Shown piece after piece: positions 5,749 through 37,754 of a stretch of 38,784 nt of DNA. This stretch comes from Ignavibacteria bacterium RIFOXYC2_FULL_35_21 (GTDB lineage: Bacteria; Bacteroidota; Ignavibacteria; Kapaibacteriales; UBA2268). The position numbers were made by a program, and so were the translations under genes. Position 1 is the stretch's first letter; each line of letters begins with the position of its first letter. The notes beneath the pieces were generated by a model. The model was not told the DNA's origin, made no database searches, and saw nothing but the letters and a program-made list of their open reading frames with translations. Where the stretch lies: the NCBI GenBank assembly GCA_001804705.1, contig MHAY01000002.1:89559-128342 (forward strand). Reading direction: 5' to 3'.

Positions 5749-6504
5749 CTATTCTTCGCCTGCAAGGCTGGATGTAGTTCCTGTGTTTTTGTTGACGTTT
5801 GCTTTTTGAAGATTGTCTGCCCAGTTGGATTGAGTAAACCTGCCGCCATAGCGGAATCTCTGTGTGTAATAGCCGTCAGAAAGTAATGTATATTTTACTC
5901 CTCTTCCACTGCTTGCAGAAGATGAATGAGCGAACATACCATCATTGATGTAAATACCTACGTGTCGAATACCTCTTGCTTTTTTCGATTTTGAACCGCT
6001 GAAAAAGAGGAGGTCGCCGAACTGTAAATCTTCCATGTTTTTGATTGGTGTGAAATAAGTTGACTGAGATTTGGCACCTGCTGGAAATCTAAAACCAAGC
6101 GTTTGTTCTATAACAACTGAAATGAAGTTAGAACAGTCAACTCCTTTTGATGTTCTGCCGCCACGCCTGTATGCAGTGCCAAGCCAATTATTTATGTTAT
6201 CAACGAGTTTGTATCTGAGTTCATAATCAGCAAATATTGATTTGTTATAATTTTCATCCAAATAGGTTATCTCTTGTAGGAAACTCATTTCGCTGAGATA
6301 GTCAAGATTTGAATATTCAGGAAAATGTGTTTTCAGTAAGGATAATGATTGATTGACGTTGGCTGATTTCCTTACTCTTTTGGTTTTTTTCTTGTGTTTT
6401 ACTTTACCTGATTTTCCTTTAGCAAATATTTCAATAGGTGCAATGACCTCAATTGAGGTTAACACAAAAAAGCACAGAATTATATAAATGATTGTTTTCT
6501 TCAT
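5749..6504 (-). CDS. NlpC/P60-family cell-wall hydrolase, secreted
   Basis: This 251-aa protein has an N-terminal signal sequence (hydrophobic residues about 4-22, possible cleavage after IEIFA) and then a strongly basic linker (residues 30-47, KHKKKTKRVRK). Residues about 100-220 are an NlpC/P60 (peptidase C40) domain with Cys124 in GVDCSNF, His181 in RHVGIY and His193 in FAHSSS as the catalytic set. It is expected to cleave stem-peptide bonds of peptidoglycan in the periplasm, typically gamma-D-Glu-diamino acid. It stands alone on the minus strand between metH and kdsA. The 352-bp region upstream is the divergent interval with kdsA. Family assignment is firm; the exact bond cut is unknown. 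Confidence 0.9.
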   Translation of the reverse strand: MKKTIIYIILCFFVLTSIEVIAPIEIFAKGKSGKVKHKKKTKRVRKSANVNQSLSLLKTHFPEYSNLDYLSEMSFLQEITYLDENYNKSIFADYELRYKLVDNINNWLGTAYRRGGRTSKGVDCSNFISVVIEQTLGFRFPAGAKSQSTYFTPIKNMEDLQFGDLLFFSGSKSKKARGIRHVGIYINDGMFAHSSSASSGRGVKYTLLSDGYYTQRFRYGGRFTQSNWADNLQKANVNKNTGTTSSLAGEE

Positions 6505-6677
6505 TTCAAAATTTTGATTTTTGTCAGATTAATTTTAGGTAAATATAAACTCTGAACTTTAGGGAAACAATTAACAAATAATTAAAAGGTTTTCATAAAT
6601 GAAAAGGGTTTAATTTATGAACAGAAAATAATATAAAAAGTTCAATAAGTTATTGAAATTTCATCACATCATATAAA

Positions 6678-6720
6678 TTATCAACACATGTTGGTAATGT
6701 GTGGAAAAGCATGTGGAAAA
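6678..6720. promoter_or_regulatory. Cluster of three near-consensus DnaA-box-like nonamers
   Basis: TTATCAACA at 6678 and two copies of TGTGGAAAA at 6700 and 6712 each differ at one position from the consensus TTATCCACA or its complement. The last two are 12 bp apart. Function is unproven; replication-initiator binding or transcriptional control by DnaA are both possible. Confidence 0.3.
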
Positions 6721-6729
6721 CTTTTTAGA

Positions 6730-6755
6730 GACCCTTCGACATGCTCAGGGTGACA
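6730..6755. repeat. Dispersed hairpin repeat, copy 1 (stem ACCCT/AGGGT)
   Basis: The stem is ACCCT (6731-6735) with AGGGT (6747-6751). The loop is TCGACATGCTC and the tag GACA follows. It belongs to the REP-like family described in the findings. Confidence 0.75.
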
Positions 6756-6856
6756 CAATCTGCGATATTATAATAATCAAGGTGGTTTTATTAATAATCG
6801 GGAAAATTTAATTAATTTAGTTGAAATGAATCAAGTGGTATAGGAGACTATTATAA

Positions 6857-7648
6857 ATGAGTAATAAATTATTAGTGATTGCAGGCCCTTGCGTTGTGGA
6901 ATCAAAGGAATTACTACAGGAAACTGCCTCCAAGTTGAAAGCAATATGTGAAAAGTTAAATTGTGTATTTATTTTTAAGTCATCTTATAAAAAAGCAAAC
7001 CGTACAAGCAATGATTCATTCACAGGAATAGGTGATGAATTAGCCCTACAATATTTGAAAGAAATAAAAAATGAATATAATGTAAAAGTTTTGACTGATA
7101 TACATTCGGTTGAGGAAGCCGTTAAAGCGGCGGAATATGTTGATGTTTTACAGATTCCTGCTTTTCTTTGCCGTCAGACTGAACTATTACAAGCTGCTGC
7201 ACGGACAGGTAAAACCATTAACATTAAAAAGGGGCAGTTTATGGCTCCCGGGGATATGAAAAAGGCAATTGACAAAGTTATTTCAACAGGCAATAATAAT
7301 GTAATGGTAACAGAAAGAGGGAGTTCATTTGGCTATCATGATTTAGTCGTTGATTTCCGTTCCTTAGTTATAATGAAAAAATTTGGATATCCGGTAATTT
7401 TTGATGCAACTCATTCTGTCCAACAGCCATCATTAGGAAAGGAGTCGGGAGGAAGGCCCGAGTTTATTCCTGCTCTTGCAAGAGCGGCAGTGGCTGTGGG
7501 TATTGACGGGATATTTTTTGAAACTCATCCTCAACCGGAAAAAGCTTCGAGTGATTCTGCATCGCAATTGCCTCTTGATAAAGCAGAATCGTTTTTATCT
7601 GATGTTTGTAAATTTCATGAGTGTTATAAAAATTCTATTTTGATTTGA
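6857..7648 (+). CDS. kdsA: 3-deoxy-D-manno-octulosonate 8-phosphate synthase KdsA
   Basis: The enzyme condenses phosphoenolpyruvate with arabinose 5-phosphate to make KDO-8-phosphate for the lipopolysaccharide core. It is 263 aa, a normal length. Family motifs are IAGPCVVES, TDIHS, QIPAFLCRQ, KKGQFMAPGD, TERGSSFGYHDL, DATHSVQ and FFETHP. Cys12 in GPC with His186 in DATHSV identifies the metal-dependent class, as in Aquifex; the metal-independent E. coli enzyme has Asn at this position. The SD AGGAG at 6842-6846 supports ATG 6857. The stop overlaps the lptC start by one base (TGATG), so the two are translationally coupled. It implies an LPS-bearing outer membrane. Confidence 0.96.
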   Translation: MSNKLLVIAGPCVVESKELLQETASKLKAICEKLNCVFIFKSSYKKANRTSNDSFTGIGDELALQYLKEIKNEYNVKVLTDIHSVEEAVKAAEYVDVLQIPAFLCRQTELLQAAARTGKTINIKKGQFMAPGDMKKAIDKVISTGNNNVMVTERGSSFGYHDLVVDFRSLVIMKKFGYPVIFDATHSVQQPSLGKESGGRPEFIPALARAAVAVGIDGIFFETHPQPEKASSDSASQLPLDKAESFLSDVCKFHECYKNSILI

Positions 7649-20414: not shown

Positions 20415-21473
20415 ATGCAAAATACTGAAATGAAAAAATGCAGAATAGCAGTTGATGCTATGGGTGGCGATTTTGCCCCTATTAATGAAGTACATGGTGC
20501 TATTTTAGCCTCTGATTATTTCCTGGATGAAACAGAACTTGAAATAATTCTTGTTGGTGACGAAGGGAAAATTAACACAGCACTTAGCCAGTTCGACCAT
20601 TCAAGGCTCAAATACTCTATTGTTCATGCTGAGGAAGTCATTACTATGGATGACGAACCAACTGCCGCTATTAAAAAGAAAAAAGAATCTTCATTATACA
20701 AAGGAATTGAGCAGGTATTAAAAGGATATGCCGACGCTTTCATTTCGGCAGGCAACACCGGTGCAGTGCTTTCGACTGCGACAGTTATGCTCGGAAGGGT
20801 AGCGGGAGTAAGCAGGCCTACAATTGGTGAATTTTTCCCTTCTCAGAAGAAACACCCCGTACTCGTTCTTGATGTTGGGGCTAATATTGACTGCAAACCG
20901 AGGCATCTTTACGAATTTGCCGTTATGGGTTCAATTCAGGCAAACCAGATTTATGGTTTGGAAAATCCGAGAATCGGATTACTCAATATCGGCGAAGAAA
21001 AATCAAAAGGTACAGAAGTTGTTCAGGAAACCTATAAATTACTTAAGGAAAGTCCTCTTAATTTTATCGGGAATGTCGAAGGAAGAGATGTATTCAATGG
21101 TACTGCAGATGTAGTGGTATGCGATGGTTTCACCGGTAATATAATCTTAAAATTTGCCGAAAGCATTGCAGGCTTCCTGAAATTCAGATTTAAAAAGTTT
21201 GCCGGTGTTAATTTCTTTAATAAAATATTAATGCTGTCTGCAATGCCAGCATTGAAAAAGGTATTCAAAGACCTCGATTACCAGGAATATGGTGGAGTGC
21301 CAATACTTGGTATTAATGGTGTAGTAATAATAGGCCATGGCAAATCCTCACCAAAAGCAATACAAAACATGATATATAAAGCATATGAGTTTGTTAAAAA
21401 GGATGTGAATGGCAAGATTGAAAAAGCCCTGAATTCGCCTTCTATTTCGGAACATATTGAACAGAATATATGA
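20415..21473 (+). CDS. plsX: Phosphate acyltransferase PlsX
   Basis: PlsX makes acyl phosphate from acyl-ACP for phospholipid synthesis. It is 352 aa. Motifs are IAVDAMGGDFAP, ISAGNTGAVLSTATVMLGR, VLDVGANIDCKP, GLLNIGEEKSKG, VVCDGFTGNIILK and YGGVPILGINGVVIIGHG. ATG 20430 is a possible alternative start and would remove five residues. The stop overlaps the fabH start (ATGA). The order rpmF-plsX-fabH is the classical one. Confidence 0.96.
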   Translation: MQNTEMKKCRIAVDAMGGDFAPINEVHGAILASDYFLDETELEIILVGDEGKINTALSQFDHSRLKYSIVHAEEVITMDDEPTAAIKKKKESSLYKGIEQVLKGYADAFISAGNTGAVLSTATVMLGRVAGVSRPTIGEFFPSQKKHPVLVLDVGANIDCKPRHLYEFAVMGSIQANQIYGLENPRIGLLNIGEEKSKGTEVVQETYKLLKESPLNFIGNVEGRDVFNGTADVVVCDGFTGNIILKFAESIAGFLKFRFKKFAGVNFFNKILMLSAMPALKKVFKDLDYQEYGGVPILGINGVVIIGHGKSSPKAIQNMIYKAYEFVKKDVNGKIEKALNSPSISEHIEQNI

Positions 21474-22459
21474 CAGCAACAATTACTTCGATAGCACATT
21501 ATTTACCACCTGATGTTTATCCAAATTCTTATTTTGAGAATTATCTCGATACATCCGATGAATGGATTGTAGCAAGAACCGGAATAACCGAAAGAAGATT
21601 TATAAAGGATGGAGCGACCTCGGATATGATTATTCCTGCGGCTAAGCAATGCCTCGAGAGAAGAGGTATGAAGCCGAATGATATAGATTGTATCATTGTA
21701 TCAACTGTAACTCCTGACCACATGTTTCCTTCGACAGCTTGTATTGTTCAGAATAAGTTAGGAGCCGAGAATGCTTGGGGATATGATATATCTGCGGCTT
21801 GTTCGGGATTTCTATTCTCATTGGTAACAGCTGCCAGCCTTGTAGAATCAGGTGCCGTAGAAAATGTTTTGCTTTGCGGTGCCGATAAGATGAGTTCAAT
21901 TTTGGATTTTGAAGACAGGTCGCAAGCGGTATTATTTGGAGACGGGGCAGGTGTTGTTTTGATTGAAAAATCAAAAGAAAAAGAATACGGCATTATTGAC
22001 CATATTCTGCATATCGACGGGGCGGGCGGCCCCTATCTTCAGCAGGTTGCAGGAGGCAGTTACAAGCCTGCATCAATTGAAACTGTAACAAACAAAGAAC
22101 ACTATATTTATCAGGATGGGCAGGCTGTATTTAAGGCAGCAGTTGTCGGAATGGCTGATGTTTCTCTCGAAATAATGCAAAAGAATAATCTTTCTTCTGA
22201 TGATGTTGACTGGTTGGTTCCGCATCAGGCTAATTTGAGAATTATAGCTGCGACAGCTAATAGAATGGGGATTGATAAAAACAAGGTTATGATTAATATT
22301 GATAAATACGGCAATACTACTTCGGGTACAATTCCTATTTGTCTTTCCGAATGGCTCGATATGGGTAAAATTCATAAAGGAGATAGACTCATTCTATCAA
22401 GCTTTGGTGCAGGTTTTACCTGGGGAGCAGTTTATTTGAGATGGGGAATGGATAAGTAA
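21470..22459 (+). CDS. fabH: 3-oxoacyl-ACP synthase III FabH
   Basis: FabH starts fatty-acid synthesis by condensing acetyl-CoA with malonyl-ACP. It is 329 aa. The catalytic triad is Cys111 (SAACSGFLF), His252 (VPHQANLRI) and Asn282 (KYGNTTSG); the 30-residue His-Asn spacing matches E. coli. ATG 21470 overlaps the plsX stop. It is followed by a 164-bp AT-rich gap before fabD. Confidence 0.97.
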   Translation: MTATITSIAHYLPPDVYPNSYFENYLDTSDEWIVARTGITERRFIKDGATSDMIIPAAKQCLERRGMKPNDIDCIIVSTVTPDHMFPSTACIVQNKLGAENAWGYDISAACSGFLFSLVTAASLVESGAVENVLLCGADKMSSILDFEDRSQAVLFGDGAGVVLIEKSKEKEYGIIDHILHIDGAGGPYLQQVAGGSYKPASIETVTNKEHYIYQDGQAVFKAAVVGMADVSLEIMQKNNLSSDDVDWLVPHQANLRIIAATANRMGIDKNKVMINIDKYGNTTSGTIPICLSEWLDMGKIHKGDRLILSSFGAGFTWGAVYLRWGMDK

Positions 22460-22623
22460 AAATTATGAATTTTGAATGCTGTATTATGAATTGTAGATAA
22501 TTAATTACTGATGTTACGCAATTATTATTATTTCCAAAAAGCAATTATATATAAATTAAATATTTTGAAAATTGTTCATTAAAAATTCAATGGAAATTGA
22601 AAATTGATAATTGAAAATTTAAT

Positions 22624-23553
22624 ATGAAAAGAGCATTATTATTTTCAGGACAGGGGTCTCAGTATGTTGGGATGATGAAGGATTTTTCTGAAAAAATTCC
22701 TTCTGCTCGTGAATTAATTAAACATTCTGATGAAGTTCTTGGTTATAAATTGAGTGAAATTTGTTTTAACGGACCTATCGAGCTTTTAAAGGAAACAAGA
22801 TTTACACAGCCCGCTATATTTTTACATTCAGCTTTAATATTGAATTTATTGAAAAATAAGTTGGAATTTAATGCAACTGCAGGCCATTCTGTAGGTGAAT
22901 ATGCAGCTCTGTTTGCTTCGGGAGTACTTGATTTTGAAGATGCTCTGATGCTTGTCTCTTTGAGAGGCGAACTGATGTTTAAAGCTGGAGAGAATGAACC
23001 GGGGACAATGTTTGCAGTAATTAACCTCGATGATGATAAAGTTGAAGAAGTCTGCAAAAGGTTAACTGAAAACGGAAATGGAAATGTGGTTGTTGCAGCA
23101 AATTATAATTCACCCGGGCAGATTGTTGTTTCTGGTTCAGCTCGATATTTGAGAGATAATGCAAAATCTTTCAAGGAAGCAGGAGCAAAGCTGGCCAAAG
23201 AACTTGTTGTGAGTGGTGCATTCCATTCACCTTTGATGGATGCGGCGAAGAAAGAGCTTGAAATAGCTATAAATAACACTGATTTCAATTATGCAAAAGT
23301 GCCGGTCTATTGTAATGTTTATGCCAAACCGCTTGCCGATGCTAACGAAATAAAAGATGCATTGGTTAAGCAATTGACCTCACCCGTGATGTGGACTCAA
23401 ACAATGAAGCAGATGGAAAGTGATGGATTTGATACTATGATAGAAATTGGCCCGGGAAATGTTTTGCAGGGTTTGGCAAAAAGAACGGTTGATGGTGTAA
23501 GTTTATCAGGTATAGATAAAGCAGAAGATTTAATTGGAATTTTGAATTCTTAA
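22624..23553 (+). CDS. fabD: Malonyl-CoA:ACP transacylase FabD
   Basis: FabD loads malonyl groups onto ACP. It is 309 aa. Active-site Ser89 is in AGHSVGEYAAL, His201 in GAFHSPLM, and FSGQGSQYVGM is at the N-terminus. An AATTGAA-type array (about 22600-22620) runs almost to the start codon, leaving no recognisable SD. Confidence 0.96.
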   Translation: MKRALLFSGQGSQYVGMMKDFSEKIPSARELIKHSDEVLGYKLSEICFNGPIELLKETRFTQPAIFLHSALILNLLKNKLEFNATAGHSVGEYAALFASGVLDFEDALMLVSLRGELMFKAGENEPGTMFAVINLDDDKVEEVCKRLTENGNGNVVVAANYNSPGQIVVSGSARYLRDNAKSFKEAGAKLAKELVVSGAFHSPLMDAAKKELEIAINNTDFNYAKVPVYCNVYAKPLADANEIKDALVKQLTSPVMWTQTMKQMESDGFDTMIEIGPGNVLQGLAKRTVDGVSLSGIDKAEDLIGILNS

Positions 23554-23617
23554 TTTTGATTTGTGTATAAAGAATTTAGATTAAATATAAAATGAGATGA
23601 AAATTAAAAAAATTTAA

Positions 23618-23625
23618 TATATTTG
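23618..23625 (+). promoter_or_regulatory. Possible -7 element upstream of fabG
   Basis: TATATTTG fits TAnnTTTG, 24 bp before the fabG ATG. No TTTG is 20 bp upstream, so it is tentative. Confidence 0.3.
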
Positions 23626-23649
23626 TAGTTTATATAAAAGAACAGAGTT

Positions 23650-24396
23650 ATGGTAAAAGGTTTGGAGAATAAGACAGCAATTGTAACTGGCGGTTGCAGG
23701 GGAATTGGGAAAGCTATTGTCGAAAGACTTGCACATGACGGTGCAAAAGTGTTTGCATTTGATTACGTTATTCCTAAACCTGATGAAGTGTTCATTGAAG
23801 AAATTGATATTAAGGGCCTCGTGAAGTGCATCCAAGTTGATGTTACCCAGGATAATTCTGTTAATAATGCCGTGCAGGAGGTTATGAATGACACCGGCAG
23901 GATTGACATTCTAATCAATAATGCAGGCATTACGCGTGATAATCTACTGATGAGGATGTCAGAAACTGAGTGGGATTCAGTGTTGAATACGAACCTGAAG
24001 GGTGCTTTCTTGTGTACCAAAGCAGTCAGCAGGATAATGATGAACCAGCGAAGCGGAAGAATAATAAATATGGGTTCAATTGTAGGTTCCATAGGTAATG
24101 CCGGGCAAGTGAACTATTCATCCTCCAAGGCTGGATTAATTGGAATGACAAAATCTTTGGCAAAGGAGTTGGGTTCAAGAAATATACTAGTTAATTTAAT
24201 AGCACCGGGGTATGTTATAACACCTATGACTGAAAAATTAACAGATGAGCAAAAACAGCTTTATATAAACAATATTCCTTTGAAACGCGGAGCATTGCCA
24301 AAAGATATAGCGAATGCAGTGGCTTTTTTTACTTCCGATGACTCAGCCTATATCACAGGACAGGTAATGCATGTTGATGGAGGACTGGCAATTTAA
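23650..24396 (+). CDS. fabG: 3-oxoacyl-ACP reductase FabG
   Basis: FabG performs the NADPH-dependent reduction of 3-oxoacyl-ACP. It is 248 aa. The cofactor motif is TGGCRGIG, then NNAGITRD, and the catalytic Ser143, Tyr156 and Lys160 have the family spacing. The N-terminal MVKGLENKTAIVTGG fits ATG 23650. It sits between fabD and acpP, the classical place. A 7-copy heptamer array starts directly after the stop. Confidence 0.95.
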   Translation: MVKGLENKTAIVTGGCRGIGKAIVERLAHDGAKVFAFDYVIPKPDEVFIEEIDIKGLVKCIQVDVTQDNSVNNAVQEVMNDTGRIDILINNAGITRDNLLMRMSETEWDSVLNTNLKGAFLCTKAVSRIMMNQRSGRIINMGSIVGSIGNAGQVNYSSSKAGLIGMTKSLAKELGSRNILVNLIAPGYVITPMTEKLTDEQKQLYINNIPLKRGALPKDIANAVAFFTSDDSAYITGQVMHVDGGLAI

Positions 24397-24445
24397 TTAC
24401 GAATTACGAATTACGAATTACGAATTATGAATTATGAATTACGAA
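24397..24445. repeat. Heptamer array, 7 copies of TTAYGAA
   Basis: Seven consecutive 7-bp units, five TTACGAA and two TTATGAA, begin on the base after the fabG stop. It has the same period and position as the array at 17497, with a different unit. Confidence 0.9.
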
Positions 24446-24510
24446 TGATCAAGATAAAATTTATATAATTTTAAATAAAAATATGTTTCATGTAAAATTA
24501 AGAGGTTAGT

Positions 24511-24744
24511 ATGGCTGATATTAAATCAAAAGTAGTGGAAATAATTGTAAAGAAGCTTGGAGTAGAAGAATCCCAGGTTACAGATAGTGCAAATTTCACT
24601 AAAGACCTTGGTGCAGATTCATTAGATACAGTAGAACTCATCATGGAATTCGAGAAAGAATTTGAAATAACAATCGAGGATAGCGACGCCGAAAAGATTC
24701 AGACAGTCGGCGATGTCGTGAGTTATCTTGAAGCAAAAAAATAA
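24511..24744 (+). CDS. acpP: Acyl carrier protein
   Basis: This 77-aa acidic carrier has Ser37 in [13 protein letters not shown] as the phosphopantetheine site. It has a good SD (AGAGG). It carries growing acyl chains for FabH, FabF, FabG and PlsX. The gene lies between fabG and fabF, the standard order. Confidence 0.97.
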
Positions 24745-24835
24745 ATAGAGTGAATTGAGAATAGTGAAGAATGAATATTAGATTTTAAAAAATATTCATT
24801 TTTCATTATAGATTATTAATTATTAGAAGGTGATT

Positions 24836-26095
24836 ATGCCAAATTACAATTTCCCAAAAATTGTTATTACCGGTGTTGGAGCCGTAAGTCCAATCGGTAA
24901 TAATGTTGAGGAATTCTGGCAGTCAATGATGGATGGAAAAAGTGGGGCTGCCCCAATATCGCGTTTCGATGCTTCTGACTTTGATACCAAATTTGCATGT
25001 GAAGTAAAGAATTTTGACCCTTTGCTGCATATGAATAAAAAAGAAATACAAAGGCTCGACCTATTTACTCAATATGCTATATCGGCTGCTACTATGGCAA
25101 TCGAAGATGCAGGATTGAATTTTGAAAAAATAAATAAAGACAGAGTTGGTGTAATTTTCGGTTCTGGAATTGGTGGTATGTGGACTTACCACAACCAACA
25201 GCAGGAACTATATGCAAGGGGTGGTAAACCGGATAGAATATCACCTTTCTTCATACCTATGCTGATTTCGGATATAGCACCGGGCCAAATAGCTATCCGT
25301 TGGGGATTGAAAGGACCGAATTACGGAACTGTATCTGCATGTGCAACATCATCACATTCTTTAAGTGATGCACTTATGAATATTCAGAGAGGCGATGCGG
25401 ATATGATGCTTGTAGGAGGAAGTGAAGCTGTGATTTGCCCGATGGGAGTCGGTGGTTTTAACTCTATGAGGGCACTTTCAACAAGAAATGATAGCCCTGA
25501 AACAGCAAGCAGGCCCTTTGATAAAGACCGTGACGGTTTTGTTATGGGTGAAGCAAGTGGTGTTTTAGTACTCGAAACTCTTGAACATGCTTTGAATCGC
25601 GGAGCTAAAATATATGCAGAATTTGCAGGGATTGGACTTACTGACGACGCTTTTCATATTACTCAACCTGCACCGGGTGGTGAAGGTGCCGTTAGGTCAA
25701 TGTCCTTGTGTATTAAAGATGCAGGACTGACACCGAATGATATTGATTATATCAACGCACACGGGACTTCAACACCTCATAACGACAGAAACGAGACCCA
25801 GGCAATTAAAACGGTTTTCGGAGACAGGGCATATAAAATGGCTATCAGTTCAACAAAATCCATGACGGGCCATTTGCTGGGTGCTGCCGGAGCTATCGAA
25901 GCCATAGCTACTGTGCTTTCTATTAAAGAAAGTATGATACCGCCAACAATTAATTATTTTACTCAAGATCCTGAATGTGATTTGGATTATACGCCAAATA
26001 AATCGAGAAAGTTGGAAATTCATGCGGCTATAAGCAATACATTTGGTTTTGGTGGGCATAATGCTTCGCTATGCTTTAAAGCGTTCGAGGAGTAA
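24836..26095 (+). CDS. fabF: 3-oxoacyl-ACP synthase II FabF
   Basis: FabF is the elongating condensing enzyme. Counted from ATG 24836 it is 419 aa with Cys169 (SACATSSH), His309 (NAHGTSTPHND), Lys341 and His346 (TKSMTGHLLGAAGA), matching E. coli with a +6 shift. ATG 24836 is chosen over GTG 24830 because MPNYNFPKIVITG follows it directly and AGAAGG lies just upstream as SD. A hairpin repeat lies just after the stop, before rnc. Confidence 0.96.
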   Translation: MPNYNFPKIVITGVGAVSPIGNNVEEFWQSMMDGKSGAAPISRFDASDFDTKFACEVKNFDPLLHMNKKEIQRLDLFTQYAISAATMAIEDAGLNFEKINKDRVGVIFGSGIGGMWTYHNQQQELYARGGKPDRISPFFIPMLISDIAPGQIAIRWGLKGPNYGTVSACATSSHSLSDALMNIQRGDADMMLVGGSEAVICPMGVGGFNSMRALSTRNDSPETASRPFDKDRDGFVMGEASGVLVLETLEHALNRGAKIYAEFAGIGLTDDAFHITQPAPGGEGAVRSMSLCIKDAGLTPNDIDYINAHGTSTPHNDRNETQAIKTVFGDRAYKMAISSTKSMTGHLLGAAGAIEAIATVLSIKESMIPPTINYFTQDPECDLDYTPNKSRKLEIHAAISNTFGFGGHNASLCFKAFEE

Positions 26096-26105
26096 GAAAA
26101 TTTTG

Positions 26106-26131
26106 ACCCTTCGACTAAGCTCAGGGTGACA
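26106..26131. repeat. Dispersed hairpin repeat, copy 3 (stem ACCCT/AGGGT)
   Basis: Stem ACCCT (26106-26110) pairs with AGGGT (26123-26127), loop TCGACTAAGCTC, tag GACA. It lies between fabF and rnc. Confidence 0.75.
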
Positions 26132-26203
26132 TGATGCTGAATCCTGAATGAGGATAATTAATTAGATAAATAAATTAAAAGTGAGAAAAAAATTTTTGAG
26201 CAA

Positions 26204-27040
26204 TTGTATAATGGATTTCTGAGGTTTTCACCGCTCAGAAAATATTTAAAGTTTAAATCCAACCGCAAAGGAAATTTTCCTAAGGTTGGATTTTTAACTG
26301 ATGAGCGCTTACGTGAATTAGAAAAGACTTTGGGAGTGCAGATTTACAAGAGAGAATTTTTTGAACAGGCTCTTACACACCGCTCCTACCTGCAAGTTTT
26401 AGATGCACCAAATTCTAACAGCGATTCCAATGATGAAGAGAAAGAGCAAAACAAGGGAATCAAATATCCATCGAATGAAAGATTAGAATTTCTTGGTGAT
26501 TCTATTCTCGGTATGGTTATAGCCGATTATTTATTTTCTCTGCATACTGATTTTCCTGAAGGGGAGCTGACCAAGATGAGGTCATGGCTTGTTAATAAAA
26601 ATTCTTTATCAATTGTTGCCAGAAAAATTGAACTGGATGAATTTTTGATGCTCAGCCACAGTGCAGCGAAATCGCTTGAGCAGGGTAGTGATTCAATATT
26701 AGCTGATGCACTCGAAGCAGTGATTGCAGCTATTTATCTCGATTCAGGTATCGAAGCATCAAAGAAATTTATATTGAATTCTTTACTTCCTGTGATGCTG
26801 AATAAAAATATAATGGTTGATACCAATTTTAAAAGCATTCTGCTTGAAAAAGCCCAGTCCGAAGGAAAGGAAATTCCAAGATACGAAGTAATTAATGAAG
26901 AAGGACCCGACCATGAGAAAGAATTTACGATTTCAGTTTATATTGGAGAGGAGCTTCTCGGGACAGGAAAAGGAAAGACCAAGAAACAAGCAGAACAAAA
27001 TGCGGCAAGCGAAGCGCTGAAATCAATTATTAATTATTAA
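26204..27040 (+). CDS. rnc: Ribonuclease III
   Basis: RNase III cleaves double-stranded RNA, including the 30S rRNA precursor. It is 278 aa from TTG 26204. The catalytic domain has FFEQALTHRSYL, NERLEFLGDSILG and DALEAVIAAIYLD, with the metal-binding acids in the expected places. A dsRNA-binding domain (about 205-278) ends GKTKKQAEQNAASEAL. The N-terminus is uncertain: no ATG occurs between the upstream stop and the conserved region, so a TTG or another rare start is used. The fab-rnc order is classical. Confidence 0.93.
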   Translation: MYNGFLRFSPLRKYLKFKSNRKGNFPKVGFLTDERLRELEKTLGVQIYKREFFEQALTHRSYLQVLDAPNSNSDSNDEEKEQNKGIKYPSNERLEFLGDSILGMVIADYLFSLHTDFPEGELTKMRSWLVNKNSLSIVARKIELDEFLMLSHSAAKSLEQGSDSILADALEAVIAAIYLDSGIEASKKFILNSLLPVMLNKNIMVDTNFKSILLEKAQSEGKEIPRYEVINEEGPDHEKEFTISVYIGEELLGTGKGKTKKQAEQNAASEALKSIINY

Positions 27041-27074
27041 TTTTTTTAAAATGAGAAAACAAATGAGGAATAAA

Positions 27075-27305
27075 ATGAATTATCCAATACTAATATATCC
27101 GGCTGCTGAAGGCGGTTATGTAGCTGAAATTATATCCTTTCCAGGGTGTATTGCTCAGGGTGAAAGTTATTTAGAATGTTTAAACGAATTAGAAACTGTA
27201 TCGAAATTTTGGATAGAAGAATATTTAACGACTCATGAAACCTTGCCGGAAACAAAAAAAGCAGTTGAAAAACTATTACAGTTTAATCAATATGAAATTG
27301 CGTAA
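27075..27305 (+). CDS. HicB-family antitoxin-like protein without a partner HicA
   Basis: This protein is 76 aa from ATG 27075, with ATG 27051 as an in-frame alternative (84 aa). It has the HicB half-RNase fold pattern: MNYPILIYPAAEGGYVAEIIS, FPGCIAQGESYLECLNELE, ending in WIEEYLTTHETLPE. TGAGG six bases upstream favours ATG 27075. HicB proteins normally neutralise HicA, a small dsRBD-like RNase, but no HicA reading frame lies on either side. It is part of a small accessory islet between rnc and gcvPB. It may be an orphan or a solitary HicB-like regulator. Confidence 0.75.
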   Translation: MNYPILIYPAAEGGYVAEIISFPGCIAQGESYLECLNELETVSKFWIEEYLTTHETLPETKKAVEKLLQFNQYEIA

Positions 27306-27402
27306 TTGGGATAATTAAGATAGTAAAAAAAATTAAGAAAGAATGTTTAGTATACATGATTCAATAATCAATACTCTTTTATACATTATACATTAAAAAC
27401 CG

Positions 27403-27521
27403 TTCAATAAATCACGCTAAAAATCCTTTTTTTTGTTGTCTGTATAATCACGATTATTGAATATAATATTAATGAATTAATAGAAGAATTAGGATATGGA
27501 ACAGTTAATATTTTGAAAAAG
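27403..27521 (+). repeat. Direct repeat flanking the TA cassette, copy 1, with a truncated gcvPB start
   Basis: This about 119-bp segment is about 90 percent identical to 28073-28190, the sequence just upstream of and including the first eight or so codons of gcvPB. It includes ATGGAACAGTT, but a one-base difference soon after gives a stop (MEQLIF then TGA). It is a dead copy of the gcvPB start. Confidence 0.85.
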
Positions 27522-27582
27522 TAGATTTATTTGTTAAATTAATTCAGTTTTAATCCATTATAAGATACTTTATGAGGTAATT

Positions 27583-27780
27583 ATGCTTGAAATAAAAAAG
27601 TTGAATGTTTATGATGATAACCATAATCAAATTGCAGTTCAAATTCCTGTTGATGATTATTTAAAGTTAGAGGAGATAATAGAAAACTATGGTTTGGCAA
27701 AACTTATGGATGAGGTAAAAGACGATGATTTATTAACATTCACAGAAGCAGAAACTTATTATCAAAATCTGAAAAAATGA
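27583..27780 (+). CDS. RelB/Phd-type antitoxin
   Basis: This 65-aa protein has a beta-rich N-terminus (IKKLNVYDDNHNQIAVQIPVDDY) and a helical, acidic C-terminal half (LEEIIENYGLAKLMDEVKDD). Its place before a RelE-like gene, with an ATGA overlap (27777), marks it as the antitoxin. It has a good SD (GAGG). The exact antitoxin family is inferred from pairing and size. Such antitoxins usually repress their own operon as a toxin complex. Confidence 0.75.
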   Translation: MLEIKKLNVYDDNHNQIAVQIPVDDYLKLEEIIENYGLAKLMDEVKDDDLLTFTEAETYYQNLKK

Positions 27781-28055
27781 CAGAGTATAAATTAATTTTC
27801 ACCAAAACATTTTTGAAAGAGTTATATTCATTGCCTGAATTAGTCAGAACCGAAGCTGAAAAAATAGTATTTAATGATTTGAGAAATATTAGTCCCTTCG
27901 ATGTTGGTAATATTGAAAAATTAAAAGGTTATCAAGATAAATATAAAATCAGAATAGGAGATTACAGAATAGGATTAACACTTGAAAAAAATAATAAAAG
28001 AATTATTTTTCAAAGAGTCGCTCACAGAAAGGATATCTACAAATTATTCCCATAA
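27777..28055 (+). CDS. RelE/ParE-superfamily toxin
   Basis: This 92-aa protein has the RelE pattern: YKLIFTKTFLKELYSLP at the N-terminus, then IEKLKGYQDKYKIRIGDYRIGL and the terminal FQRVAHRKDIYKLF with the conserved His-Arg-x-Asp-x-Tyr. RelE toxins cut mRNA in the ribosome; ParE toxins block gyrase. Sequence favours the RelE side. It overlaps the antitoxin stop by 4 bp. The pair sits between two copies of the gcvPB upstream region. Confidence 0.85.
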   Translation: MTEYKLIFTKTFLKELYSLPELVRTEAEKIVFNDLRNISPFDVGNIEKLKGYQDKYKIRIGDYRIGLTLEKNNKRIIFQRVAHRKDIYKLFP

Positions 28056-28072
28056 TAAATATCACAAAATCC

Positions 28073-28190
28073 TTCAAAAAAATCACGCTAAAAATCCTTA
28101 TTTTTATAGTTTGTACAATTACGATTATTGAATTTAATATTAATGAATTAATAGAAGATTTAGGATATGGAACAGTTGATTTTTGAAAAG
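28073..28190 (+). repeat. Direct repeat flanking the TA cassette, copy 2 (the functional gcvPB start)
   Basis: This is the second copy of the about 118-bp repeat. It runs from TTCAAAAAAATCACGC through the gcvPB start codon to GAAAAG, where gcvPB continues as a full gene. Confidence 0.85.
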
Positions 28191-29621
28191 AGCAGAAGTG
28201 GAAGAAAGGGATACACTTTACCTGAATTGGATGTACCGAAAGTTGATACAGAAAGATTAATTGGTAAAAATTTTATCAGGAAAGCAGAACTTGGATTGCC
28301 TGAGGTAAGCGAAAATGAGATTGCAAGGCATTTCGTAAAGCTGTCGCATTTGAATTACTGCATCGAAGAAGGTGTTTATCCTCTCGGCTCATGCACAATG
28401 AAGTATAATCCAAAAGTTAATGAAAAGACGGCATCTATTGCCGGATTTGCGGAATTGCATCCCTGCATTGATGAGAAGTATTCTCAGGGTGCTTTGCAAT
28501 TGATGTATGAATTAGGTGAAAGCTTAAAAGCTGTTGCCGGATTGCAGGGTGTAAGTATGCAGCCATCAGCCGGTTCACAGGGTGAGTTGACTGGAATTTT
28601 AATGATTCGCGCTTATCATTTGGATAGGGGAGATACTAAGAGAACAAAGATTTTAATTCCTGACTCTGCACATGGCACTAACCCTGCATCTGCGGCTATT
28701 GCGGGATTTGAGATTGTCAGTATTAATTCCAATAGTGAGGGTAAGGTAGATATAGAGGACATGGCGAAAAAAGTAGGTGATGATGTTGCAGGATTTATGC
28801 TTACTAATCCAAATACTCTCGGCTTGTTTGAAAATCAGATTATTGAAATTGAAAAGCTGATACACGGATGCGGCGGCTTGATGTACATGGATGGAGCAAA
28901 TCTCAATGCCCTGCTTGGTATTGTTCGTCCAGGTGATATGAAATTCGATTGTGTCCATATCAATCTTCATAAAACATTTGCAACTCCTCATGGCGGAGGT
29001 GGACCCGGTGCGGGACCAGTTTGTGTGAGTGAAAAGCTTATTCCATATTTACCAATACCTCAGATTGTAAAAGTGGGAGAAAAATACATACTCAAGGAAG
29101 ATAATCCGAAATCAATCGGGAAACTCCATACATACTTTGGGAATTTCGGTGTATTTGTAAGAGCACTTACATATATCCGAATGAACGGTGCTGATGGCTT
29201 ATTTGGTATAAGTAAGAATGCAATAATAAATGCAAATTATCTTAAGGAGCTTCTGAAAAAAGATTTTGAATTTCCGTTTGATGACAGGTGCATGCATGAG
29301 TTTGTGATGAGCGGCGACAAGCAAAAGAAAATCGGAGTATCAACTAAAGATATGGCAAAGAGAATGTTGGATTACGGCTACCATGCACCGACAATTTATT
29401 TTCCTCTTATCGTCCATGAAGCTATGCTGGTTGAAACAACCGAGACAGAAACAAAAGAAAGTATTGATAAATTTGCAGAGACTTTAATTAAAATTGCGAA
29501 GGAAGCAGAAACTCAGCCTGAATTGGTTTTGAATGCACCTTCAACAACTCCTGTTAAACGGTTGGATGATGCCTTGGCGGCGAGAGACCTGAATATTTCG
29601 TGGTTTACAAAGAAGAAGTAA
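28167..29621 (+). CDS. gcvPB: Glycine dehydrogenase (decarboxylating) subunit 2, GcvPB
   Basis: This is the PLP-binding half of the two-subunit P protein of the glycine cleavage system. It decarboxylates glycine and passes the aminomethyl group to the H protein. It is 484 aa. MEQLIFEKSRSGRKGYTLPE is the family N-terminus. PLYPLGSCTMKYNPK-type residues follow, and Lys269 in HINLHKTFATPHGGGG is the PLP Schiff base. GcvPA is not in the window. The upstream 95 bp and first codons are duplicated before the TA pair. Confidence 0.95.
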   Translation: MEQLIFEKSRSGRKGYTLPELDVPKVDTERLIGKNFIRKAELGLPEVSENEIARHFVKLSHLNYCIEEGVYPLGSCTMKYNPKVNEKTASIAGFAELHPCIDEKYSQGALQLMYELGESLKAVAGLQGVSMQPSAGSQGELTGILMIRAYHLDRGDTKRTKILIPDSAHGTNPASAAIAGFEIVSINSNSEGKVDIEDMAKKVGDDVAGFMLTNPNTLGLFENQIIEIEKLIHGCGGLMYMDGANLNALLGIVRPGDMKFDCVHINLHKTFATPHGGGGPGAGPVCVSEKLIPYLPIPQIVKVGEKYILKEDNPKSIGKLHTYFGNFGVFVRALTYIRMNGADGLFGISKNAIINANYLKELLKKDFEFPFDDRCMHEFVMSGDKQKKIGVSTKDMAKRMLDYGYHAPTIYFPLIVHEAMLVETTETETKESIDKFAETLIKIAKEAETQPELVLNAPSTTPVKRLDDALAARDLNISWFTKKK

Positions 29622-29626
29622 CCTTT

Positions 29627-29660
29627 TAGAATGCAAAATGCAAAATGTAGAATGTAGAAT
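29627..29660. repeat. Short tandem array after gcvPB (unit near AATGCAA / AATGTAG)
   Basis: Units AATGCAA and AATGTAG are repeated about five times just after the stop codon. The unit matches the array at 1974 after the MTHFR fusion. Confidence 0.7.
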
Positions 29661-29718
29661 TAAATAAGATATAGGAAAAGAAATAGTGAGAACAAAGAAT
29701 AATAATTATATAAATTTA

Positions 29719-29763
29719 TCCTTCGACAAGCTCAGGATGACAGGCGACAAGCTCAGGATGACA
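29719..29763. repeat. Dispersed hairpin repeat, copy 4, tandem and inside a reading frame
   Basis: Two head-to-tail units (TTCGACAAGCTCAGGATGAC then GCGACAAGCTCAGGATGACA) lie in the 5' part of the TPR gene. In frame they read SFDKLRMT / GDKLRMT. The stem TCCT/AGGA pairs in the first unit. Confidence 0.85.
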
Positions 29764-30507
29764 ATTGTTTTTATCATAATTATGATATTTGCTTTTGGTG
29801 TAGTATCTGCTGCTGAAAGTGTTAAGAAAGATGAAAAATATTATAGAGAACAGGGTTTGACAAAATTTAAACAAGGTAAATATTCTGAAGCTATTTCCAA
29901 TTATACAAAATCAATAAAAATAAATTCAAAGTATTCTGTTGCCTTTCTTGAACGCGGATTAGCTTATTATATGTTAAATAAAAATGAAAATGCTTTAAAA
30001 GATTTAAACAAATCAATAAAATTAGATGGTAAAAATCCTCTGGCATTTTACAACAGGGCTTTGCTTTATAATAGATTGAATAAGCCTGACTCAGCGATTT
30101 TGGATTATTCAAAAGCAATTGATTTGAATCCTAAATTTTCTGAGGCATATACAAACAGGGGTCTTTCGTATAAAAAAATAGATAAATTTCAGGAAGCTGT
30201 TCAGGATTTTCACAAGGCTATTGAGTACACCCCCAAAAAAGCAATGAATTATTTTAACAGGGCTACTGCTTATGCTAAAATGAATAATATTGAATTAGCA
30301 ATGAATGATTTTCAAAAAGCATTGGAGCTTGAACCAAATAATTTGGAAGTACTTTATAACCGTGGATTGATTTATTACAGAACAGGAAAAAATGACCTGG
30401 CATTGAAGGATTTTGAGAACTATATTGAAAAAGCCAAAGATAATAAAAATTACAAAGAAACAATCCCCGGAATTGGGAATATTATCAAGCAGTTAAAAGA
30501 AAAATAA
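29758..30507 (+). CDS. Exported TPR-repeat protein
   Basis: From ATG 29758 the protein is 249 aa with a short signal peptide (MTIVFIIIMIFAFGVVSAAE, cleavage after VSA). Six or so TPR units follow (for example YREQGLTKFKQGKYSEAISN, AFYNRALLYNRLNKPDSAIL, VLYNRGLIYYRTGKNDLAL). The frame is also open up to GTG 29686 (273 aa), but the added residues cross a noncoding-type repeat. The chosen ATG and its AGG lie inside that repeat. It may be a scaffold in the periplasm. It lies 188 bp before gyrA. Confidence 0.75.
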   Translation: MTIVFIIIMIFAFGVVSAAESVKKDEKYYREQGLTKFKQGKYSEAISNYTKSIKINSKYSVAFLERGLAYYMLNKNENALKDLNKSIKLDGKNPLAFYNRALLYNRLNKPDSAILDYSKAIDLNPKFSEAYTNRGLSYKKIDKFQEAVQDFHKAIEYTPKKAMNYFNRATAYAKMNNIELAMNDFQKALELEPNNLEVLYNRGLIYYRTGKNDLALKDFENYIEKAKDNKNYKETIPGIGNIIKQLKEK

Positions 30508-35946: not shown

Positions 35947-36128
35947 CTATTCAACAAGGCATTGAATTCAAGTCCGACATATTTTATCAAAGAACGAGCG
36001 GGACAAAGATAAGGTTGATTGGATGTTATGTCAAGAAAATGATTTTAAAATGGTTTGGAAAAAATCCAATTTTATTTAATAATATTAATGAATTAATTTT
36101 GTTTAACAAAACAAATCTTATGGTATAA
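35943..36128 (+). CDS. Possible small protein before the SIR2-like gene
   Basis: This is a 61-codon frame from GTG 35943 that ends 4 bp before the SIR2-like gene. The product is basic and unfamiliar (MAIQQGIEFKSDIFYQ, RTSGTKIRLIGCYVKKMILK). It has no SD and no family I recognise. The close spacing to the next gene is the only argument that it is real. A chance frame in AT-rich DNA is as likely. Confidence 0.25.
   Translation: MAIQQGIEFKSDIFYQRTSGTKIRLIGCYVKKMILKWFGKNPILFNNINELILFNKTNLMV
36094..36101 (+). promoter_or_regulatory. Possible -7 element of the SIR2-like gene
   Basis: TAATTTTG fits TAnnTTTG, 31 bp before ATG 36133, with a weak TTTT at the -33 position (36070). Confidence 0.35.
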
Positions 36129-36132
36129 TAAT

Positions 36133-37302
36133 ATGATTGAAAAAATTATTAAAGAAATATCCGAACTCAAAGATGGATATTGTTTATGGGTAGGTGCTGG
36201 GATAGATATTTATTTATCATCAATCAGTGACTTAAAATTACCAACATGGGAAAAGCTAATATCAAATTTAGAGGCTATGGTTGAAAAAGAAACTGGAAAG
36301 GATTACAGTGTAAATAAAAGCTATAAATATTTTGAAAGATTTCAAATCATTCAAAATAGGTTATCAATTGATACTTATCAGTCTTATATTTACAATGAAA
36401 TATTTTTAAAACTATCTGCATCCATAATTAAAGCAGAGGAAGAACTAAATAAAACTGGAGAATTATTCCCCAAAATTATAAATAATATAGCCAAACTAAG
36501 TCACTTAGCAAACCCAATAGTAAATTTTAATATAGAATATCTCTCTTCAATAGCACTTGCTTTGCCTGGTGGGGAATATGCTATTAAGGTATTTGGAGTT
36601 CCTACACCTGATTCATTATACCCTTTCTCATTTATTGCAAACTATACAAGGGATAATAGAACTTTTAAAAGGCAGATATTTCATCCACATGGGACAATTG
36701 AAAGTAGCGGTAAATGTGTACTTAGCAAAAGTGAGTATGAGGCTTTAAATGGTACTTTAGCTTTGACTTTAGCAACACATTCAGCTTTTGCATCTGATCT
36801 TGTAATTGTTGGAATGAGTCTGGAAGATGATTATTTGAAAGAACAAATTAGTAAATTTAGAAATCAAATCAGAAATATATATTGGTTTACTGATATTGAT
36901 ATTTCTTCTGACCCTGATTTAGAAAAGTGGATAAATATGAACGGGGTTATATTAATAAATATACCTAATAAAAACTGGAATTTATTTTGGGATTTGATTG
37001 ATAAACATTTTAATGGGCCAGATACAAAATCGATAATTGTTACTTGGGCTAATCTCGTACTTCAATCTCTTCAATGTTTTGAAAATTGGGAAGAAATTTT
37101 GAAGAAATATAACTATGATGATACAAAAATTGTAAAGTCAATAAAAGAAGCAAAACCAAATAATGAATTAATTGAATTATATAGAGAATCACAAATTAGA
37201 GGAATTTTATCAGCATCAAATAGAAAAATTAATTTTGATAAAAATAGGTTATCCGATATTTTAAAAAATATGAAGAAAAGATTGGAACCTAATTTAATTT
37301 AA
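36133..37302 (+). CDS. Stand-alone SIR2-like protein (candidate antiphage NADase)
   Basis: This 389-aa protein has an N-terminal SIR2-like domain of the type seen in bacterial defence proteins. The nucleotide loop is LWVGAGID (18-25; Ser of GAGxS replaced by Asp), the Asn motif is VNFNIEYL (Asn131; usual Asp replaced by Asn133), the His motif is FHPHGTI (His186) and LVIVGMSLEDDYL (223-234) follows. The C-terminal part (about 290-389) is helical with no recognised domain. The catalytic-type Asn and His are retained. Similar domains in ThsA and DSR proteins deplete NAD+ upon phage infection; here activity is inferred. The gene is clearly AT-rich, isolated, and flanked by repeats, which suggests transfer. 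No partner gene (TIR, HerA, pAgo) is next to it. Confidence 0.75.
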   Translation: MIEKIIKEISELKDGYCLWVGAGIDIYLSSISDLKLPTWEKLISNLEAMVEKETGKDYSVNKSYKYFERFQIIQNRLSIDTYQSYIYNEIFLKLSASIIKAEEELNKTGELFPKIINNIAKLSHLANPIVNFNIEYLSSIALALPGGEYAIKVFGVPTPDSLYPFSFIANYTRDNRTFKRQIFHPHGTIESSGKCVLSKSEYEALNGTLALTLATHSAFASDLVIVGMSLEDDYLKEQISKFRNQIRNIYWFTDIDISSDPDLEKWINMNGVILINIPNKNWNLFWDLIDKHFNGPDTKSIIVTWANLVLQSLQCFENWEEILKKYNYDDTKIVKSIKEAKPNNELIELYRESQIRGILSASNRKINFDKNRLSDILKNMKKRLEPNLI

Positions 37303-37441
37303 AATATTTTAGTAAAACTTTTTTGGTATCTAAATTATAATGAAGTTAAAGATTTATTCCGATAAAATTTGACATTATTGAAAATTTTAAGATAAAAATT
37401 CTTTGTGGACTTTGTGGTAAAATTTAGCAGGCTTCCCATAG

Positions 37442-37527
37442 ATATAATCCCTACGGGATAAGTGTGGGTGCGGGTTCTGATGTTCTTCTACTAATGTATA
37501 ATCGCTATGCGATAAATTTGTTATATT
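37442..37527. repeat. 86-bp repeat with two mini-hairpins, copy 1
   Basis: It contains ATCCC-TAC-GGGAT and ATCGC-TAT-GCGAT hairpins about 50 bp apart. It is about 90 percent identical to 37619-37704 (9 differences, no gaps). Confidence 0.85.
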
Positions 37528-37564
37528 TTTTACACCTTCCCAAACCCTTCCTCGAGGAAGTGAG

Positions 37565-37590
37565 ACCCTTCGACAACGCTAAGGGTGACA
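37565..37590. repeat. Dispersed hairpin repeat, copy 6 (stem ACCCTT/AAGGGT)
   Basis: ACCCTT (37565-37570) pairs with AAGGGT (37581-37586), loop CGACAACGCT, tag GACA. It lies between the two 86-bp repeat copies. Confidence 0.75.
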
Positions 37591-37618
37591 GAATAATTAC
37601 GAATTACGAATGGTGGAT

Positions 37619-37704
37619 ATATAATCCCTACGGGATAAGGGTGGGAGTGGGTTCTGTTGTGCTTCTACTAATGTGTAATCGCTACGCGATAGAATTGTTA
37701 TATT
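37619..37704. repeat. 86-bp repeat with two mini-hairpins, copy 2
   Basis: Hairpins ATCCC-TAC-GGGAT and ATCGC-TAC-GCGAT. The same element as 37442-37527, 177 bp downstream in the same orientation. Confidence 0.85.
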
Positions 37705-37730
37705 GAATTAATATGGATTATACGCTATGG

Positions 37731-37754
37731 ATTCCTGCTTTCGCAGGAATGACA
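37731..37754. repeat. Hairpin repeat ATTCCTGC-TTTC-GCAGGAAT with GACA tag
   Basis: An 8-bp perfect stem (37731-37738, 37743-37750) followed by GACA, the same tag as the TCGACAAGCTC family. It lies directly before copy 7 of that family. Confidence 0.75.

Follow-up and report, generated by a model that had tools for sequence, protein, structure and literature searches.

A solitary SIR2-domain protein with two exchanged active-site residues as a candidate antiphage effector in an Ignavibacteria genome

The gene and its protein

The window, by which the whole stretch of 38,784 nucleotides analysed here is meant, comes from the forward strand of contig MHAY01000002.1 (positions 89,559 to 128,342; assembly GCA_001804705.1) of Ignavibacteria bacterium RIFOXYC2_FULL_35_21. 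Towards its right-hand end a gene for a SIR2-like protein stands alone, with a porin/TonB-like gene upstream at 813 bases and a convergent atpG gene at 511 bases. The features of the gene are the following.

36133 to 37302, plus strand: coding sequence of the solitary SIR2_2 protein, 389 amino acids (open reading frame list, Pfam, agreement of the start with homologue L074)
36166 to 37011, plus strand: SIR2-like (Rossmann) domain, approximately residues 12-293 (Pfam, HMM alignments, L074)
36193 to 36207, plus strand: GAGxS loop with Asp in place of Ser, G21-A22-G23-I24-D25 (sequence, 53-protein alignment, loop count)
36529 to 36537, plus strand: N133-I134-E135, the catalytic Asn and a Glu where TTNxD has its acid (HMM and ThsA alignments)
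36688 to 36693, plus strand: H186-G187 of HPHG, with the catalytic His that corresponds to ThsA H152 and KomC H146 (profile alignments)
37012 to 37299, plus strand: C-terminal residues 294-389, a putative specificity or sensor region (no known domain; barely conserved in L074)

The only close homologue found is a solitary protein of 381 amino acids encoded at positions 6375-7520 of locus L074, from a Parafilimonas MAG, which is 37.6% identical to the window protein over residues 15-309. The choice of start codon agrees between the two, as both proteins begin a few residues before the motif GYCLWVGAGID. The window protein belongs to the SIR2_2 superfamily, its match to PF13289 (residues 132-269) scoring 41.6 bits and that of L074 45.9 bits against a curated cut-off of 24.5. 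Besides SIR2_2, no Pfam family matched the window protein at E values up to 1 and no NCBIfam family at E up to 10, and the only PHROGs matches stood at E 0.14 and 0.35. Partial matches to the PADLOC profiles LmuA (E 1.2e-6) and ThsA (E 6e-4) have their best stretches in residues 177-247; L074 gave no PADLOC match.

Searches of PDB sequences found nothing at E up to 10, either with the window protein alone or with a two-member profile of it and L074, and a search with L006 also returned nothing. With E values up to 1, a profile that joined the window protein with three SIR2-kinase fusions picked out 14 distinct PDB sequences, most of them KomC, ThsA and DSR2 (the last at E 7.5e-6), together with 7uxt ('USG protein') and 9v0g; one that combined the window protein with L074 and a single kinase matched 7uxt, KomC and ThsA. 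The relatives reached through the three fusions thereby appear to be mainly SIR2 NADases of defence systems. The comparison with SIR2_2, ThsA and DSR profiles that the earlier note had proposed has by these routes given a match above the cut-off for SIR2_2, a partial one for ThsA and, for DSR2, one obtained through the profile that includes the kinases.

Structure prediction from the single sequence was useless (pLDDT 36). A model made with L074 and L075 reached pLDDT 44, with the C-terminus below 50 and too weak there for a fold to be read. The first seven Foldseek hits of this model were DSR2 chains (best E 2.7e-4, TM approximately 0.3); because the model is so weak, these matches carry little weight and are taken as a hint of fold.

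The C-terminal 95 residues or so match no known domain in Pfam, PADLOC, NCBIfam or PHROGs, as had been supposed of the last 100 from the sequence. Across residues 179-293, 55 of 113 aligned positions are identical to L074, and across residues 294-389 the count is 19 of 91; the global alignment score of the two C-terminal pieces was equalled by 21 of 500 shuffles. A fast-changing tail on a conserved core would fit a recognition role, and a poorly constrained tail would look alike.

The gene has a GC content of 27.6% (17.9% at third positions), against 35.4% for the window and 39.7%, 35.3% and 38.5% for gyrA, the porin/TonB-like gene and atpG, respectively, which bears out the earlier note that its GC lies below that of its neighbours. 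Low GC is common to the two other SIR2 genes of the same genome (22.0% and 26.6%). Pseudogene decay was considered and rejected, as the open reading frame is intact over its full length and its motifs are conserved in L074.

With regard to the genome's other SIR2 genes (G000), a second SIR2_2 gene on contig C96 (L035 10754-14715) shares 4 bases with the end of a type IIG restriction-methyltransferase gene and matches the PADLOC profiles Aga_SIR2/SIR2. A third, on contig C23 (L036 5095-7749), begins 15 bases after an apparent TPR-repeat gene and also has PADLOC SIR2 matches; this pair may be a unit.

The genomic site and the distribution of the gene

The strip around the gene carries direct and inverted repeats, in keeping with the repeat-rich strip between housekeeping genes of the earlier note. 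Three features of the flanks, none with an assigned strand, enter the comparison with congeners.

35963 to 36056: left flanking block, 85% over 94 bases in congener G003 (L030) and partly present in G002 (L032) (comparison with congeners)
37442 to 37704: direct repeat of 86 bases in two copies at 90% (37442-37527 and 37619-37704) (repeat scan)
37521 to 37754: right flank, with blocks 37521-37563 and 37706-37754 found beside atpG in G003 (comparison with G003)

Parts of these repeats are also present in the strips of the congeners, where the SIR2 gene is missing. The gene was found in none of the three congeners (G001, G002 and G003), one of which, G003, allowed the full interval to be compared. 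There, the interval is again bounded by the porin/TonB-like gene and atpG, the body of the SIR2 gene is unmatched, and an unrelated gene of 439 amino acids (Fn3_assoc/CHB_HEX_C_1, 25.8% GC) lies between the left and right blocks. G002 has the strip beside atpG without the SIR2 gene, its porin/TonB-like gene being on another contig with another neighbour, and in G001 the interval is interrupted by contig ends, one within the porin/TonB-like gene and one 556 bases beyond atpG. That G003 has another gene at this site, and that all 53 other genomes of the family lack the SIR2 gene, marks it as accessory.

The interval between the porin/TonB-like gene and atpG (L030 4888-7335, compared with window positions 36056-37754) looks like a cargo site: the low-GC gene that occupies it differs between two congeners, and the cargo of G003 is bordered on either side by a 49-base repeat. 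No integrase or transposase was recognised among the open reading frames of the strip, and scans of the window for Rfam families and tRNAs were negative.

The window contains 28 other open reading frames of at least 150 amino acids, ten of which were scanned against PADLOC (those at 20415-30507, the porin/TonB-like gene and atpG, with gyrA left out); apart from one weak generic TPR hit, these ten gave no defence family at E 1e-5. The lack of a partner of known systems that the earlier note described holds for these ten of the 28, and no defence island was seen in this part of the surroundings. The genes next to L074 are oppositely oriented FKBP-type and AraC-type genes, as read from the open reading frames, and no defence partner could be recognised around it from the sequences.

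These surroundings bear on the idea of a split system, in which the protein would be the effector and its partner (TIR-type ThsB, HerA, pAgo or LmuB) would be encoded elsewhere in the genome. Such an arrangement would be in keeping with the partial ThsA and LmuA profile matches and with the partners that several known SIR2 systems have in the published accounts as far as these were available, but the lack of a partner family among the ten scanned open reading frames and of a recognisable one around L074 makes it, in our estimation, very unlikely.

L074 was found with a four-sequence profile in a genome contig collection (E 5e-54 among the candidates), where two loci were confirmed out of 127 stretches; the SIR2-kinase of the second, L075, is the one also encoded at L048. 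Queried with the window protein, 59 other relatives and 394 other genomes of the phylum yielded no homologue, and the gene is absent from the 53 other genomes of its family, the samples of relatives, phylum, class and family overlapping; likewise, none of the 393 other sampled genomes of the family of L074 holds a member. Exact peptide patterns of the window protein gave 68 pattern matches in genome contigs (84,980 species), none of them confirmed. With the window protein, tblastn found nothing in plasmids at E 0.01 or 10 and nothing in phages at E 0.01; with L074 phages gave nothing at E 1, and scans of viral contigs yielded no confirmed relative. As pattern-based scans miss most distant relatives, the figure of one homologue is a lower bound, and a single close homologue makes neighbourhood statistics impossible.

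Two further similarities were set aside. Microvirus replication initiators showed a weak similarity in tblastn (E 0.09-0.8) that was taken as chance, and a SIR2 protein of a Rhodococcus plasmid (E 0.8 to L074) has canonical motifs and falls outside the GAGxD/NxE family. Close to the gene for the latter lie genes for a recombinase, Fic and a class I DNA methyltransferase (L076 3212-10269).

The earlier note had named homologues lying mostly in metabolic operons as an argument against a defence role; the sole homologue, L074, is solitary and outside a metabolic operon. This touches on the suggestion that the protein has an ordinary role in metabolism or housekeeping, or that the gene is a neutral passenger, for which the rarity of the gene and its place beside housekeeping genes could be cited. 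The patchy occurrence (0/53 genomes of its family and 0/393 of that of L074), the conserved active site and the lack of a visible operon partner in either host speak against it, and little credence is given to it. Because the site is variable, the GC content low and the homologue distant, the gene was presumably acquired horizontally.

Active-site residues

The register of the active site was established with HMMs of 40 SIR2 proteins, of 37 of these without the SIR2-kinases, and of the three SIR2-kinases alone. N133-I134-E135 falls on the N-x-D of TTNxD in all three (40, 37 and 3 sequences), and a fourth HMM, of 12 nearer proteins, left the stretch around N133 unaligned. ThsA (6lhx) N112 aligns to the Asn of N-I-D/E in the profile that unites the window protein and the three SIR2-kinases, ThsA H152 aligns to H186 in the second profile (window protein, L074 and one kinase), and the mutation of the KomC H146N PDB chain sits at the HG histidine that matches H186. 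As the three HMMs and the ThsA alignment agree on N133-I134-E135, the catalytic pair is N133 and H186, and the residue at the acid position is E135.

The earlier note was right about His186 and about the GAG loop with Asp for Ser (D25 is at +2 after G21-A22-G23). It was out of register, however, in assigning the catalytic Asn to position 131 and in reading a change from Asp to Asn after an NF motif, and this reading was rejected since the HMM and ThsA alignments give N133 and E135. The real change, from Asp to Glu, is milder than the one claimed before. The proposal of a SIR2-like candidate single-gene antiphage system accordingly keeps its solitary gene, patchy occurrence and intact catalytic Asn and His, with one of its two active-site oddities misread.

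Open reading frames of SIR2 type were sought in 54 loci and provided 53 aligned proteins, L017 having given none. The alignment HMM was built from 40 of them, chosen by a pattern that required D or N at the acid; no selection on the acid residue was applied in the tally of all 53. The proteins are not all independent: L046 and L047 appear to be duplicates, L050-L052 resemble one another, and fragments are included. At the GAGxS position 46 proteins have Ser, one has Cys and two have Asp, with four unreadable; as the TTNxD acid 50 have Asp and two have Glu, with one unreadable. Both Asp-for-Ser and Glu-for-Asp belong to the window protein and L074, the only two in which they co-occur. L074 also shares HPHG, and since the equivalents of D25 and E135 are kept at approximately 37% identity, the two residues are conserved and do not reflect decay. 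The loop from D25 to LPxW has ten residues in both proteins; elsewhere it has four residues in 13 proteins, five in two and nine in one (L005), among the 18 of 53 in which it can be read (35 unreadable).

According to the available parts of the published studies, ThsA N112A and H152A abolish NAD cleavage, H152A also disturbing the oligomer (PMC7272460); N133, D135 and H171 are important in DSR2 (PMC10981675, PMC11263360, PMC11290490); and Avs5 loses immunity with N110A and D112A (PMC12931631). Exchange of the adenine contact T52 of DSR2 for Ala is given as having negligible effect (PMC10981675). The window protein has the catalytic Asn and His of the sirtuin NADases ThsA, DSR2, Avs5 and KomC, as N133 and H186, but not their Ser of GAGxS or Asp of TTNxD, where it has D25 and E135. 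The available portion of PMC12931631 describes GAGXS and TTNXD as motifs that characterise all known sirtuins; that D25 and E135 alter them counts against a defence reading, and real alternatives are a changed substrate or a pocket that is weak or dead.

One such alternative is an offshoot of the SIR2 proteins with a changed reaction, in which D25 and E135 would retune the pocket towards another nucleotide, a signal molecule or ADP-ribosylation of a target. The confinement of the residue pair to two of 53 proteins and its retention at approximately 37% identity are what such an offshoot would lead one to expect, as is the loop of ten residues where four is the length in 13 of 18 readable proteins. 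The replacement of Asp by Glu is conservative, however, the catalytic Asn and His are kept, and L005 has a long loop (9) with normal motifs, so that a changed reaction is possible but doubtful.

The other alternative is a catalytically dead SIR2-like scaffold or a sensor of NAD or ADP-ribose. The Asp of TTNxD, replaced here, is described as important in both DSR2 and Avs5, where its exchange for Ala impairs activity (PMC10981675, PMC11263360) and immunity (PMC12931631), respectively, in the sections available; these data concern Asp to Ala and do not extend to Glu. An Asp at the Ser of GAGxS would in addition bring negative charge near the nucleotide. A dead scaffold would have no need of the catalytic Asn and His that both members conserve, and this alternative is considered improbable.

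Named SIR2 systems and the proposed function

The window protein is related in sequence to several SIR2 defence proteins, and size, domain and partner led to its rejection as a member of the DSR, ThsA, SIR2-HerA, SPARSA and Lamassu families. It has in common with DSR2 the SIR2 domain with catalytic Asn and His, the profile match and first Foldseek hits given above, and the solitary gene, DSR2 acting as a single gene. DSR2, however, is a protein of approximately 1005 amino acids with HTH, helix-bundle, HEAT and C-terminal domains in the available text of PMC11263360, compared with 389 residues, D25 and E135, and no C-terminal match here; the remark that known DSR proteins (approximately 1000 amino acids) are much larger was thus well founded.

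ThsA of Thoeris is comparable through its N112 and H152, which align to N133 and H186. It differs in its C-terminal SLOG domain, which has no match in the window protein, the ThsA profile covering only residues 177-247; among the ten open reading frames scanned there was no counterpart of its TIR partner ThsB. The LmuA protein (SIR2 type) of Lamassu provided the best PADLOC profile, with the best stretch at residues 179-247, but the match is partial and neither LmuB nor LmuC was found in those ten. As to SIR2-HerA, SPARSA and Lamassu, the adjacent genes are the porin/TonB-like gene and atpG and not HerA, pAgo or LmuB, which were also missing from the ten scanned.

KomC of Kongming is a SIR2-only NADase and, with 7uxt, is among the best PDB matches of the mixed profiles. 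It has 264 amino acids and canonical GAGVS and TTNYD motifs, and it works together with other Kom proteins.

After L074, the nearest SIR2 domains are those of SIR2-Ser/Thr-kinase fusions (L048/L075, L069 and L070), which share N-[LF]-N-I before the acid but retain Ser and Asp and carry a C-terminal kinase (by Pfam in L048, read from the sequence in L069 and L070). LmuA-profile matches in 33 of 395 genomes of the phylum (own included) gave SIR2 domains weakly similar to the window protein, L048 among them, and a profile of the window protein with L048 matched 7 of 391 genomes of the class at 1e-5 (own included) and added the fusions L069 and L070.

Fusions of this kind, approximately 785 amino acids long, are encoded at L075 7929-10283, L079 3218-5578 and L078 5789-8146. 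In two of these three loci, L075 and L079, the gene sits between HsdR-like and HsdM-like type I restriction genes, L075 having Fic and HsdS in addition, and L078 has an open reading frame with an HSDR_N domain (281 amino acids) approximately 1 kb downstream. The position of the genes suggests that the SIR2-kinase is an add-on to type I restriction. A further arrangement is found at L039 (70-2403, minus strand), where one open reading frame reads as a SIR2 domain followed by an apparent histidine-kinase ATPase and a receiver domain.

The window protein is therefore placed, by its sequence, within the SIR2_2 superfamily and outside the named SIR2 defence families compared, with two motif changes unseen in the other 51 proteins. 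A literature search by general words, in the text accessible to it, met no GAGxD/NxE family, which is weak evidence.

The reading preferred here, with a probability of about one half, is a horizontally acquired, solitary SIR2-domain effector, probably an antiphage NADase with a remodelled NAD pocket. Its observed basis is the SIR2 domain with catalytic Asn and His, the conserved D25 and E135, and a gene that is solitary in two distant hosts and absent from close relatives; NADase activity, trigger and phage defence are ascribed to the protein by analogy, and an anti-virus role of the gene is plausible. NAD(+) would bind between the Rossmann core and a small helical module and, on a trigger, be cleaved by N133 and H186. 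An infected cell would then lose NAD and phage production would stop, an abortive infection of the kind attributed to DSR2, ThsA and KomC. The variable C-terminal residues, some 95 in number, may set the trigger or hold the enzyme off. Human FAM118 proteins, SIR2 relatives, are presented in the available part of PMC12700824 as NAD-processing filaments that need a partner paralogue, and solitary need not therefore mean simple.

A more far-reaching version, speculative and rather unlikely, is that the window protein and L074 represent a small family of solitary sirtuin-like immune effectors, in which the GAGxD/NxE pair and the longer loop remodel the pocket so that phage infection would lead to the use of a different nucleotide, or to a different product, than in the known NAD-depleting SIR2 systems, the fast-changing C-terminus serving as phage sensor.

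With the catalytic Asn and His retained and Ser and Asp exchanged, in two distant hosts, the family constitutes a compact natural test of what the exchanged residues do. With fewer than 400 residues, the window protein is also a small candidate for single-gene SIR2 defence that would be easier to study than DSR2 with its approximately 1000.
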